From Desulfobacca sp. (lineage in GTDB: Bacteria; Desulfobacterota; Desulfobaccia; Desulfobaccales; Desulfobaccaceae), in assembly GCA_020725545.1 (NCBI GenBank), contig DYEV01000008.1, positions 1-64,000 on the forward strand: a stretch of 64,000 bases of DNA, in the 5' to 3' direction. Below, one piece after another: positions 45,107-49,339 of the stretch; the stretch's first letter is position 1, and the number at the start of each line of letters is the position of its first letter. The notes under the pieces are model-generated. The model had not been told where the DNA came from and searched no databases. It worked only from the letters and a program-made list of their open reading frames with translations. Both the position numbers and the translations under genes were made by a program.

Positions 45107-46015
45107 ATGACCTTGCCAGCGCCGCCATCGATTTTTACCATTCTAGCCGATTGTCAACTTCAGGGTCGGTCTGCAGTCTTGGCCATTGTTGTGGCGACGC
45201 AGGGCTCGACGCCCCAGAAAGTCGGCGCCAAACTCGTGGTCCGGGAGGACGGCACGACCGCGGGCACGGTGGGCGGCGGTGAGTTGGAGGCCCGGGTTAT
45301 CCAGGAGGCGCTGGTGGTCCGGCAATCCGGCACGCCGCGGTTGTTGGAGGTGGATCTGTCAGCACCCGGGGCGGCCCTCTGCGGCGGCCGGGTCAGCGTG
45401 TATCTGGAGCCGGTCCTGCCGCCGCCCAGCTTATATATAATCGGCGCCGGACATGTGGGTCTGGCCCTGGCCCATCTGGCGGTCTTCATCGGTTTCCAGG
45501 TCACCTTGTTGGACGACCGGCAGATGGACTTGCCGCCTGAACTCAAGCAGGTCCGATTTCACCAAATTCTGGATTATCGTCAGCCCCTTGCCCAGCTGAC
45601 GTTGGCCGACCCGGCATATATCGTTATTGCCAGCCGGAGCCACCAGCATGATCTGGAGGCTGTGCTGGCGGCCTTGCGCACGCCGGCCGTCTATATCGGT
45701 CTGCTGGGCAGCACCCGCAAGAAAACTGCCTTGGCCGAGAAACTTGTGGCCATGGGCGTGACGCCGGCCGAGTTGGCCCGGGTATATGTCCCGGTGGGCT
45801 TGGACCTGGGGGCCGTCGGTCCGGCGGAAATTGCCGTTAGCATTGCGGCACAACTCATCGCACAGCGGAGGCAACATGCCACCTTTGATCTCAGCCCTGC
45901 TTTTAGCCGCCGGCTCCTCCAGCCGGATGGGTCAGCCGAAAGCCCTGTTGCCCCTGCAGGACAAACCGGCCATTCTCCACTGCCTGACCCCTCTGTGGCA
46001 CGGATCGGTCAGTGA
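45107..46015 (+). CDS. XdhC/CoxI family molybdoenzyme maturation protein
   Basis: 302 residues. The N-terminal XdhC domain has VVATQGSTPQKVGAKLVV and GTVGGGELEARV. The C-terminal Rossmann domain begins with LYIIGAGHVGLALAHLA and has IGLLGSTRKK. XdhC proteins bind molybdenum cofactor, protect it and promote its sulfuration or selenation before insertion into molybdenum hydroxylases. The last 46 codons (after about AQRRQ) overlap mocA in another frame; family members normally stop near that point. It is first in the xdhC-mocA-selenoprotein operon. Confidence 0.9.
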   Translation: MTLPAPPSIFTILADCQLQGRSAVLAIVVATQGSTPQKVGAKLVVREDGTTAGTVGGGELEARVIQEALVVRQSGTPRLLEVDLSAPGAALCGGRVSVYLEPVLPPPSLYIIGAGHVGLALAHLAVFIGFQVTLLDDRQMDLPPELKQVRFHQILDYRQPLAQLTLADPAYIVIASRSHQHDLEAVLAALRTPAVYIGLLGSTRKKTALAEKLVAMGVTPAELARVYVPVGLDLGAVGPAEIAVSIAAQLIAQRRQHATFDLSPAFSRRLLQPDGSAESPVAPAGQTGHSPLPDPSVARIGQ

Positions 46016-46481
46016 GATTATCGTGGTCCTGGGCGGCGGCAGCGAACCGGCGGCGGCCCATTTAAAGGATATGTCCTTAAAAATTCTCTATAATACCCTA
46101 CCGAACTCCGAAATGGTCAAATCAGTGCGGATCGGCCTCCAAGCCATGGCGCCGCAATGCCAGGCGGCCCTCATCTGTCTGGTGGACCACCCGCTGGTGC
46201 AGGCGGACACCATCAAGCAGATCGTCGCGGCCGGCCTGGAGCAGCCCGGCAAGATTATTATCCCCACCTTTCAAGAGCGGCGGGGCCATCCCACCCTGTT
46301 TCCCAAGGCCCTGCTGACGGAAACGTATCAGGGCTTCCACCTCCAGGAAATCATCGGCCGCCATCCTGATAAGGTGGTGCTCCTGCCGGTGCCCGACGAA
46401 GGCGTGGTGCTGGAGATGGATACGCCGGAAGAATATCAGGCCATCTGCCAACGTCTACAGGAGACCAGCCATGGCCAATGA
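45876..46481 (+). CDS. mocA: MocA/MobA-like molybdenum cofactor nucleotidyltransferase
   Basis: 201 residues. The NTP-transferase signature LLLAAGSSSRMGQPKALLPL opens the protein, and VDHPLVQADTI carries the metal-binding Asp. MocA attaches cytidine to molybdopterin, making MCD for XdhC-dependent enzymes. The ATG at 45876 has CGGAGG four bases upstream. It overlaps xdhC by 140 bases and the following gene by 11 bases. Confidence 0.92.
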   Translation: MPPLISALLLAAGSSSRMGQPKALLPLQDKPAILHCLTPLWHGSVSEIIVVLGGGSEPAAAHLKDMSLKILYNTLPNSEMVKSVRIGLQAMAPQCQAALICLVDHPLVQADTIKQIVAAGLEQPGKIIIPTFQERRGHPTLFPKALLTETYQGFHLQEIIGRHPDKVVLLPVPDEGVVLEMDTPEEYQAICQRLQETSHGQ

Positions 46482-46737
46482 ATTAACCCACCTCAGCTTC
46501 CGGGTGCAGGGTTTGCTGCAAAAAGGCGTTTTTACCTGAATGGGCTGCCCGGACGCGGTCCGCGCCGCAGTCACGGCTCTGCCTGGAGTCTTGTCCATCA
46601 GCTATCAACCCGAAACCGATCTCTTCCGCCTGACTTATCGCACCGATAAGGTGCAGTTACCAACTATCTTTGCTGCCGTTTGGGAAGCTGGCCGCCAGAA
46701 CGGTCGGGAGTTCGTGCCCCAGGTGGTCAATGACTAA
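46471..46737 (+). CDS. putative HMA-domain selenoprotein (in-frame TGA, UxxC)
   Basis: 88 codons with TGA as codon 23 (46537-46539), read here as selenocysteine. The ATG at 46471 has AGGAG at 46459-46463 and overlaps the mocA stop by 11 bases, so translation into codon 23 is well supported. The downstream frame remains coding to TAA at 46735. It looks like an HMA domain: TUMGCPDAVRAAVTALPGV aligns with the T-C-x-x-C...LPGV metal-site and helix pattern, so U23 replaces the first Cys and Cys26 is the second. A bSECIS-like hairpin follows (46543-46566). Its role in metal or selenium handling with XdhC/MocA is inference. The alternatives are a nonsense mutation or reinitiation at ATG 46540, which directly follows the TGA. 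Confidence 0.68.
46537..46566 (+). promoter_or_regulatory. candidate bacterial SECIS element
   Basis: Starting at the TGA, CGGAC (46550-46554) pairs with GTCCG (46558-46562) around the loop GCG, and GGC (46543-46545) pairs with GCC (46564-46566) below an internal loop. The loop begins with G, 16 nt after the TGA, at the near edge of the range accepted for bacterial SECIS. Confidence 0.5.
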
Positions 46738-46833: not shown

Positions 46834-47250
46834 TTAAGCTGTTTCGCTGCCCAACCAAGAGGATATTTCCCGTTCCAGCAGTTCCCGGATGGTGTCCCGG
46901 GTGCGCCGGTAGTGGTCTATGTCAAAACCGAAGGGATCAGCAAGACGGCGGTGAAAAACCCTGCCGCCGAAGTCCGGGGGGAGACGTTTCTGCAGGTCGT
47001 AGCCGGAAAAGTTGATGATGGCGCGACAAGATACCAAGTCCACCGCAGCCAGGCCTTTGGACTGAAGCCCGGTGGTCGGGATATGCAGCTCTGCCAAGAC
47101 GGTCAGGGTCTCGGGCGCCACCCAGCCCAAAGGGCTGAAGCCGGCCGAGACCGCTTCCACCTGTCCGCCAAAGAAGTGCCGTGCCAAGGCCTCGGCCATG
47201 ATGCTGCGGCAGGAGTTGCCCAGACAGAGAAAGGCCAGGCGCGGTTTCAT
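46834..47250 (-). CDS. low-molecular-weight phosphatase / arsenate-reductase-like protein
   Basis: 138 residues. The active-site P-loop CLGNSCRS (CX5R) is near residue 9, and the family helix IMAEALARHFF follows. The catalytic Asp segment is likely RRLADPFGFD near residue 110. It could be a protein-tyrosine phosphatase or an ArsC-type arsenate reductase; the sequence does not decide. The ATG at 47250 overlaps the stop of the upstream membrane-protein gene as ATGA. Last gene of a minus-strand run that begins with the HlyD gene. Confidence 0.87.
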   Translation of the reverse strand: MKPRLAFLCLGNSCRSIMAEALARHFFGGQVEAVSAGFSPLGWVAPETLTVLAELHIPTTGLQSKGLAAVDLVSCRAIINFSGYDLQKRLPPDFGGRVFHRRLADPFGFDIDHYRRTRDTIRELLEREISSWLGSETA

Positions 47251-48194
47251 GACGGCCACCACACGGTCCAGCGATCCAGGGCGGTGAACATCAGGAGCCA
47301 GAAGAGCACCTGTCCGGCCAGCCAACGCCAGCGACCCTGGGGCGTGGTCAGCCAGCGTGCCTGCAGGGCCTCGAGAAAATTATACATTACCGCACAGGCC
47401 ACCGCAAAAGGCGGAAACCCCAGGTAGCCCAAAACCGGCATCTCAAAGACCTTGCCGAATTGGAAAAAGGGCAAGGTATAAATCCACTTGGCCTTGGCCC
47501 AATAATTCCAGCATTCCCAGAATACCCCGCAGACCAGCCCGGCCACGAGCAGCAGGTAAACCTCCCGGCGCTGCCCCTGGCGCCAGTCGATCCACAAGGA
47601 TCGCCCCCCCCAGAGATAACAGAACGGCTCTAACAGAAAGATGAAGGCCAACCAGACCAGTGGAAAAAAGTAGCGGGGCCAAAATAGGGGCATGAGCCAA
47701 AAAAGCCAGCCGGTGAGGAGAAAGGGAACCGGCCAGGTGTTGCCCACGGGTCGGCGGGTGCCCTGGACCGCGGCAAAGAGGCCGAAGGCCCGCAGCAGAT
47801 CCCGGGTCTGAAAAAGGCCCGGCAGGACCGTGGCAAAGCCCAGCCAGTAGCCCAGCCAGCGTGGCAGGCGGTCCAACGGCAGACCTTGATAGTGCCAATT
47901 GCCCAGGAAGAAATTGGCAAACTCAAAGACCAGCCAGCAGGTCACCGAAGCCATGGCAAGTCTGGGCAACTGCCAAGGCCGCGTCATCAAAAGTGACTCG
48001 CCTTGCCGCTGGAAAATCACCGTATCCGCCAGGACAATATAGGACCACCAGGCAAAAGAGTAGAACCAGGTGGCAAAGGGCTCGCGGCCATAATGCAGAC
48101 CCCACACCGCGGTGAGGAAGAAAACCCCGGCCACAAGGCCGAGGCCTCGGGAAAATACTCTTGGTGTTGCCGTCGGCATCCAATTTTTGCGCAT
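47247..48194 (-). CDS. multi-pass membrane protein of unknown function
   Basis: 315 residues, very rich in Trp, Phe and Leu, with about 8-9 hydrophobic segments. No transporter motif is recognised. I placed the start at ATG 48194 (MRKNWMPTATPR); the frame continues upstream through the ABC permease gene, where it is a shadow. It starts 17 bases after the permease stop and overlaps the phosphatase gene, so it belongs to the exporter operon. Confidence 0.75.
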   Translation of the reverse strand: MRKNWMPTATPRVFSRGLGLVAGVFFLTAVWGLHYGREPFATWFYSFAWWSYIVLADTVIFQRQGESLLMTRPWQLPRLAMASVTCWLVFEFANFFLGNWHYQGLPLDRLPRWLGYWLGFATVLPGLFQTRDLLRAFGLFAAVQGTRRPVGNTWPVPFLLTGWLFWLMPLFWPRYFFPLVWLAFIFLLEPFCYLWGGRSLWIDWRQGQRREVYLLLVAGLVCGVFWECWNYWAKAKWIYTLPFFQFGKVFEMPVLGYLGFPPFAVACAVMYNFLEALQARWLTTPQGRWRWLAGQVLFWLLMFTALDRWTVWWPS

Positions 48195-48211
48195 CCAGCA
48201 CGCCGCCTCCC

Positions 48212-49339
48212 TCAATCCAGTCGTTTTTTCAGCCGCCGCAGGCTGAGGCCGAAAAAGGCGATGAAAAATCCCGCCAAAATAAGCAGGCTGGGCCAATACT
48301 GCTGCAGCCCCAGGCCTTTTAAGTATACTCCCCGCACGATCTCCATAAAATAGGTAACCGGCAGGATATGGGCCATTACTTGGGCCTCTCGGCCCATGCT
48401 GGCCACGGAAATAAAAAAGCCGGAATAAATAAAGGCCGGAATCAGGGTAATGACGGTGGTCAGGAGCATGGCCCCCACCTGCGTGCGCAAGAGAACCGAG
48501 ATGAGCAGCCCCAGGGAAGTGGTGACGCCCACATACAAGCAGGCGGCGCCGGTGAGGAAAAAGAAACTGCCCCGCAGGGGGACGTGGAAGACAAACTGGG
48601 CCAGAGCTACCAGCAGAAAGTAATTCAGGAAACCAATGCCCCAATAGGGGAGGAGTTTTCCCAACAGATACTCCCAGGGACGGATGGGCGAACAGTAGAT
48701 ATTAAAAATGGCGCCGCTCTCTTTTTCACGCACCACGGCGATGGAGGCCAGGAGGGCGGAATAGAAAAAGAGGTTGGTGGCGATAAGTCCTGGCACGATG
48801 AAATTGCGGCTTTGCAGATCAGGGTTGAACCAGGCCCGGGACTCCACCTGGATATAGGGGGTGGCAGTCTCCGGCCGCGCCCACCCCATAGCCAGATCCC
48901 GATTGAACTCCTGTTGGATGATGTCGAGATAGTTCAGGATGGCTGAGGCCCGGTCGGGAAAGGCGCCGTCAATCAACGCCTGGATTTCGCTGGGGCGGCC
49001 GGTATAGAGGGTCCGGTCGAAGTTGGGCGGAATGATGAGCCCCAAGCGTATTCGGCTGTCGATGAGGCCCTCATACAGCTTCTGATAATCCTGCAGATGG
49101 GTCTGGAAGGCAAAATAGCGGGAGTGGGCCAGGCGGTCTACCAAGGCCCGGGACAGGGGGGAGCGGTTCTGATCGATGACGGCAAAAGGGATGTTATTGA
49201 CGTCCAGGGTCAGGCCAAAGCCGAAAAGGATAAACAGGAGCAGAGGAACCCCAAAGGCCAAGGAAAGATAGAGTTTATCCCGGAGGATTTCCTTCAGCTC
49301 TTTCTCGGCGACGGCCAGGAGGCGGCGGCTAAGGCGCAT
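48212..49339 (-). CDS. ABC-2 type exporter permease
   Basis: 375 residues with the layout of YbhR/YhhJ/LinK permeases: TM1 after the sequence VAEKELKEILRDKLYLSLAFG, a large periplasmic loop (about 60-190), then five TM segments (VPGLIATNLFFYSALLASIAVV onwards, in parts). It overlaps the ATPase gene by 11 bases. A second permease, usual in YbhFSR-type systems, is not encoded. Confidence 0.92.
   Translation of the reverse strand: MRLSRRLLAVAEKELKEILRDKLYLSLAFGVPLLLFILFGFGLTLDVNNIPFAVIDQNRSPLSRALVDRLAHSRYFAFQTHLQDYQKLYEGLIDSRIRLGLIIPPNFDRTLYTGRPSEIQALIDGAFPDRASAILNYLDIIQQEFNRDLAMGWARPETATPYIQVESRAWFNPDLQSRNFIVPGLIATNLFFYSALLASIAVVREKESGAIFNIYCSPIRPWEYLLGKLLPYWGIGFLNYFLLVALAQFVFHVPLRGSFFFLTGAACLYVGVTTSLGLLISVLLRTQVGAMLLTTVITLIPAFIYSGFFISVASMGREAQVMAHILPVTYFMEIVRGVYLKGLGLQQYWPSLLILAGFFIAFFGLSLRRLKKRLD

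Follow-up and report, generated by a model that had tools for sequence, protein, structure and literature searches.

The locus described here raises two questions: whether the TGA that interrupts a small reading frame behind mocA in Desulfobacca is read as selenocysteine (Sec, U), and what a protein that carries this residue in an HMA domain would do. By the window we mean the whole stretch of Desulfobacca sp. DNA that was analysed, 64,000 nucleotides in length. The original prediction, made from these nucleotides alone, described an open reading frame with an AGGAG signal, an 11-base overlap with mocA, a TGA at codon 23 and 65 further codons, and all of these were found as described. The overlap is formed by the ATG at 46471 and the 3' end of mocA, and the 65 codons after the TGA are open up to the TAA. 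The gene comprises the following features:

46471-46737, forward strand: candidate HMA-fold selenoprotein gene of 88 codons, with TGA as Sec at codon 23 and the stop TAA at 46735-46737.
46459-46463, forward strand: ribosome-binding site AGGAG, 7 nt ahead of the ATG at 46471.
46537-46539, forward strand: in-frame TGA (Sec23), the first ligand position of UxxC, with all 23 family members carrying TGA at this codon of the alignment.
46546-46548, forward strand: TGC (Cys26), the second ligand position, replaced by TGA in both copies of genome G053, which gives UxxU.

Decoding of the TGA as Sec is strongly supported by comparative evidence. Among the window's genome and 58 relatives, 20 genomes were found to hold 22 copies of the gene, each interrupted in frame by TGA at one and the same position, and a wider sample of the phylum added one further copy (G084, locus L073), so that the family counts 23 members in 21 genomes. 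The window's TGA, which had been proposed to encode Sec, is hence found at the same codon in 22 further sequences from 20 other genomes, which speaks strongly against a chance occurrence. The family motif is U-x-x-C; the two G053 copies, where a second TGA takes the place of the second Cys, have UxxU. When 395 genomes of the phylum were searched with a profile, the members scored at least 85 bits and all carried the TGA, while the next matches, below 36 bits, were ordinary HMA domains, mostly of P-type ATPases. We also scanned about 85,000 species genomes with sequence patterns; the 15 loci returned, labelled as Deltaproteobacteria, Syntrophobacterales, Syntrophales, Desulfobacca or uncultured bacterium, all have the TGA.

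It had been suggested that homologues be examined for Cys opposite U. In this comparison, TGA stands at the same codon throughout, and a Cys counterpart of Sec23 is seen only in the wider HMA superfamily and not in an orthologue. Indeed, no Cys orthologue was found in the 59 genomes, in the profile search of 395 genomes or in the scan of about 85,000, although the scan patterns were strict and absence is therefore not proven. Class-level searches around G053 and G084 revealed no Cys forms, with only 1 and 3 genomes to search, and no relatives were found in IMG/VR and PLSDB. The family is thus apparently Sec-only, as judged from these sequences.

The machinery for Sec insertion, which had been named as something to look for, is complete in the window's genome: selA (618 bits), selB (388 bits), a tRNA-Sec(UCA) with anticodon TCA, and selD were all found. 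It should be noted that selB is above the cut-off in 55 of the 59 genomes examined, so that its presence does not set genomes with the HMA-Sec gene apart from those lacking it. The match to selD (locus L027, G000:C22:51412-52329) itself holds one in-frame TGA, and SelD of this genome is therefore probably also a selenoprotein.

The TGA is followed by an element of the kind expected for Sec decoding:

46543-46572, forward strand: bSECIS-like hairpin with apical stem CGCG/CGCG and loop GUC (46558-46560); the stem-closing third bases are conserved in eight genera.

The small hairpin spans 13-27 nt downstream of the TGA, its loop starts about 18-19 nt past it, and in a 36-nt context the window element folds with the CGCG/CGCG apical stem at -14.5 kcal/mol. 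We compared, for each aligned codon, how often sequence pairs with the same residue also share the codon with the sharing expected from pooled codon usage. Synonymous codons are most strongly conserved at positions +4 to +9, with observed against expected values of 0.59 and 0.33 for Pro +4, 0.82 and 0.50 for Asp +5, 0.62 and 0.34 for Val +7, 1.00 and 0.27 for Arg +8, and 0.89 and 0.41 for Ala +9. Codons +1 to +10 lie above the rest (Mann-Whitney p = 0.005); other conserved columns (Gly, Phe, Tyr, Asp) share codons about as expected, and an excess is also seen at a few less conserved columns (+18, +21, +24, +26). In the codons for Asp +5, Arg +8 and Ala +9, the third positions are free of protein constraint and would close the pairs C15-G25, G16-C24 and G13-C27. 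Of the Desulfobaccia-type (main-lineage) sequences, 20/20, 20/20 and 19/20 have C at these positions, for which the chance is about 1e-8 if the eight genera are taken as independent, a rough figure as the genera are related. Of the 23 members, 21 have G at nt 19 as the first loop base, and inspection shows that a hairpin at a comparable position, one base out of register, is possible in the divergent copies of G053 and G084.

The folding energy after the TGA, compared with synonymous resampling, gave no signal (mean z about 0), and the case for a SECIS thus rests on site-specific constraint rather than on stability. RNAalifold on the ungapped alignment found no consensus structure, because the divergent members are register-shifted, and an Rfam scan of 44-49 kb of the window gave no match. 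The hairpin at 46543-46566 of the original prediction can form, and a SECIS-like element is supported; taken alone, however, that hairpin is no stabler than shuffles (z +0.39). It is an alternative pairing specific to the window's genus, and the family-wide element uses a different register. The constraint itself is as expected of a bacterial SECIS.

The TGA could also be an ordinary stop, in which case the gene would be a 22-residue leader peptide followed by reinitiation at TGAATG, or a pseudogene. In the window, an ATG does directly follow the TGA, and the C-terminal 65 amino acids alone are still HMA-like. However, only 11 of the 23 members have Met (ATG) directly after U, and in eight the codon there is GTC, AGC, ATC, ATA, ACC or GCC; as these eight have no start codon after the TGA, reinitiation is excluded as a general explanation. 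Residues 12-22, which precede the TGA, are as conserved as the remainder (V12, G14, G19 and F21 are invariant in A1), TAA or TAG never replaces the TGA in any member, and the synonymous constraint described above is of the SECIS type. We regard an ordinary stop as very improbable. A pseudogene or sequencing error was rejected, as 21 genomes agree. An alternative genetic code was likewise rejected, since mocA, directly upstream, ends with TGA, which is therefore a normal stop in this genome. The protein downstream of the TGA is conserved across members, and none of the three findings that the original prediction had listed as adverse to it, namely a genome lacking selA, selB and selC, unrelated residues at position 23 and degraded downstream sequence, was made.

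The HMA fold of the read-through protein is supported. Residues 22-75 match Pfam PF00403 at 30.5 bits, above the gathering threshold of 24.8 (E 4.8e-7), and the predicted replacement of the first metal-binding Cys holds, as U23-M-G-C26 sits at the CxxC position. An AlphaFold2 model built from a 22-sequence alignment (pLDDT 84) has an HMA-like beta-alpha-beta-beta-alpha-beta order of strands and helices, and Foldseek agrees, with MerP (1osd) as top match (E 5.9e-6, target-normalised TM 0.90) and MerP, CopZ-like proteins and copper-ATPase domains as best matches. A six-residue insertion lies between GM and T/V-U (GL-LQKGVF-TU in the window, GM-MQQGGF-TU in the consensus) and is missing in 19 other HMA domains aligned across that stretch. 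In a FastTree phylogeny, all 23 members fall in one clade (support 0.72). No signal peptide is apparent by eye at the N terminus, and the protein is therefore probably cytoplasmic.

With regard to novelty, the original prediction, which knew of no description of an HMA selenoprotein in an xdhC-mocA operon, needs correction. A review of the prokaryotic selenoproteome includes the UxxU metal-binding NF041115, a MerT-type selenoprotein and a P-type ATPase with UxxC (PMC13188914), and NCBIfam also holds NF045683 ('MerT/CopZ fusion-like heavy metal transport selenoprotein'). Selenoproteins of the HMA type, among them the E1-E2 ATPase UxxC protein, are therefore not new as a kind (PMC13188914, PMC9312934). 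A close counterpart is NF041115, a UxxU metal-binding (seleno)protein called 'putative mercuric reductase' in reviews, which shares with our family the small HMA domain, Sec at the CxxC position, deltaproteobacterial lineages and, for the G053 copies, UxxU. However, the window protein scores only 17.4 bits against this model and the other members tested at most 31.4 (cut-off 95), the NF041115 matches all lack the six-residue insertion, and in locus L090 an NF041115-like UxxU gene and a family member are separate, adjoining genes. MerP (TIGR02052) and CopZ (NF033795) have the same fold and position of the metal motif, but the window protein reaches only 19.0 bits (cut-off 92.55) and 23.2 bits (cut-off 91), respectively, and the family differs by Sec for Cys, by the loop insertion and by the lack of an apparent N-terminal export signal. 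NF045683 and the P-type ATPase E1-E2 UxxC selenoprotein are, like the family, Sec-containing heavy-metal proteins, but they are multi-domain membrane transporters, whereas the family is a free-standing single domain; NF045683 was not among the NCBIfam matches of the window protein. No NCBIfam cut-off was passed by the window protein or by the other members tested, and a description of the family was not found in the selenoprotein literature searched, the partial coverage of which makes this weak evidence of absence. As far as could be checked, it is only this family, with its diagnostic six-residue loop insertion, that is undescribed and uncatalogued.

The genes found next to the members point to arsenic and, once, to mercury. 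Nine sister-family loci (L031, L033-L036, L039, L042, L045 and L046) lie in arsenic clusters, although these include related genomes and are not nine independent events. The clusters contain, in varying combinations, arsR, an ACR3-type permease (PF01758), a universal stress protein, a periplasmic thioredoxin, a CcdA-type protein, the arsenite methyltransferase ArsM (NF008823, 304 bits, cut-off 263), an ArsP-type permease (PF03773) and an ArsE-family thioredoxin (TIGR00412, 78 bits, cut-off 62). Among 31 relatives, 15 ArsM genes are above the cut-off, seven of them within about 2.3 kb of the HMA-Sec gene and three of these seven within about 60 to 130 bases. In G053 (L090), the order is a MerR-type regulator, a glutaredoxin/ArsE-like gene, a MerT-like gene, an NF041115-like UxxU MerP homologue and the family member. 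About half of the loci have no recognisable metal-resistance neighbours.

Several further observations were made in these genomes. The arsenic clusters of L035 and L039 hold genes for lipoyl synthase, lipoate ligase, dihydrolipoyl dehydrogenase and a GcvH-like protein, which suggests a lipoate-dependent step tied to arsenic handling. In L090, which belongs to a distant Desulfobacterota genome, positions 1567-1764 and 1812-2039 form a tandem pair of different UxxU HMA selenoprotein genes behind the genes resembling merR and merT. Many ArsM-like methyltransferase genes from relatives in this order contain one in-frame TGA (e.g., G023:C82:9630-10331) and in this resemble the ArsM-type selenoproteins of NCBIfam (NF041536, NF041537).

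The surroundings of the gene in the window are as follows:

45107-46015, forward strand: XdhC-family gene (nearest NCBIfam model NF045664, 218.5 bits, cut-off 350), upstream in the same operon and kept in the congener's locus L029.
45876-46481, forward strand: MocA-like nucleotidyltransferase gene (nearest model NF045665, 159 bits, cut-off 315), whose reading frame opens at 45786.
46834-47325, reverse strand: LMW phosphatase/ArsC-type protein (PF01451), convergent and outside the operon.
47250-48644, reverse strand: probable membrane protein of 465 amino acids with no Pfam match, overlapping the LMW-phosphatase gene.

The window's copy has no adjoining ArsM, ACR3 or ArsP gene, and the nearest match to arsM in this genome is below the cut-off and on another contig. 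The convergent LMW phosphatase/ArsC-type gene gives a weak hint of arsenic for this organism. The order xdhC-mocA-HMA-Sec is shared by the window and L029, the two known Desulfobacca-type copies. The xdhC-mocA operon highlighted originally is thus real in the window's genus but is specific to it, the recurrent context being arsenic detoxification and, in one case, mercury.

When these data are considered together, we find it likely that the gene encodes a small cytoplasmic HMA-fold selenoprotein with a Sec-x-x-Cys site for the capture and hand-over of soft metal(loid)s. For the metal(loid) role on its own the chances appear about even, as ligand and hand-over are inferred from the fold and the gene neighbourhood. 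In the proposed mechanism, SelB and tRNA-Sec would decode the TGA at codon 23, aided by the hairpin just downstream, and would thereby place a Sec-x-x-Cys metal-binding site where CxxC is usual. On the simplest view, this pair of residues would be a site of high affinity for soft metal(loid)s. The selenolate-thiolate pair would then most probably bind species such as As(III), methylated As(III) and Hg(II), passing what it captures to a partner, which may be an efflux permease, a methyltransferase or a thioredoxin-like reductase. The affinity of selenocysteine for As(III) and Hg(II) is general chemistry, and Sec may be favoured in the site for this affinity. The protein would most likely act in the cytoplasm as a carrier whose selenolate-thiolate pair holds arsenic or mercury species. 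Only tentatively, and with somewhat more doubt than belief, do we suggest a Sec-only metallochaperone family dedicated to arsenic, that is, a selenolate carrier of As(III) or methylated As(III) between methylation by ArsM, reduction, and export by ACR3 or ArsP.

Two other functions were weighed against that of a metal(loid) carrier. The UxxC could be a redox centre that forms a selenenylsulfide, for example in reducing arsenic species or a protein partner with ArsE-like thioredoxins. Redox catalysis is the typical use of Sec (PMC13188914), and thioredoxin-like, CcdA, dihydrolipoyl dehydrogenase and lipoate genes adjoin the gene in several loci. Nonetheless, HMA and MerP folds are metal carriers, no catalytic residues were identified beyond UxxC, and the UxxU version in a merT-containing operon better suits a MerP-like role, so that we consider a redox centre unlikely. 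Less likely still is that, in the window's genus, the protein serves XdhC and MocA by supplying metal, sulfur or selenium for the maturation of a molybdenum hydroxylase or aldehyde oxidoreductase. Both known Desulfobacca-type copies share the gene order and the 11-base overlap, and the nearest NCBIfam models of the two neighbours are aldehyde-oxidoreductase maturation factors; however, this concerns one genus only, and XdhC/MocA were not seen beside any other member. For the window's organism, a possible partner suggested by the operon is the machinery of molybdenum-hydroxylase maturation.

Standard annotation truncates or misses this selenoprotein family, which is distinctive for its apparent lack of Cys orthologues and for its link to arsenic detoxification in Desulfobacterota. 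An arsenic-dedicated selenolate carrier, if true, would be an arsenic-handling component absent from the searched literature. Moreover, a 2026 review leaves open, for Sec-containing metal-resistance proteins, the question of ligand versus catalysis (PMC13188914), and as a small soluble protein the family is suited to asking whether selenium acts as a metal(loid) ligand rather than as a catalyst.
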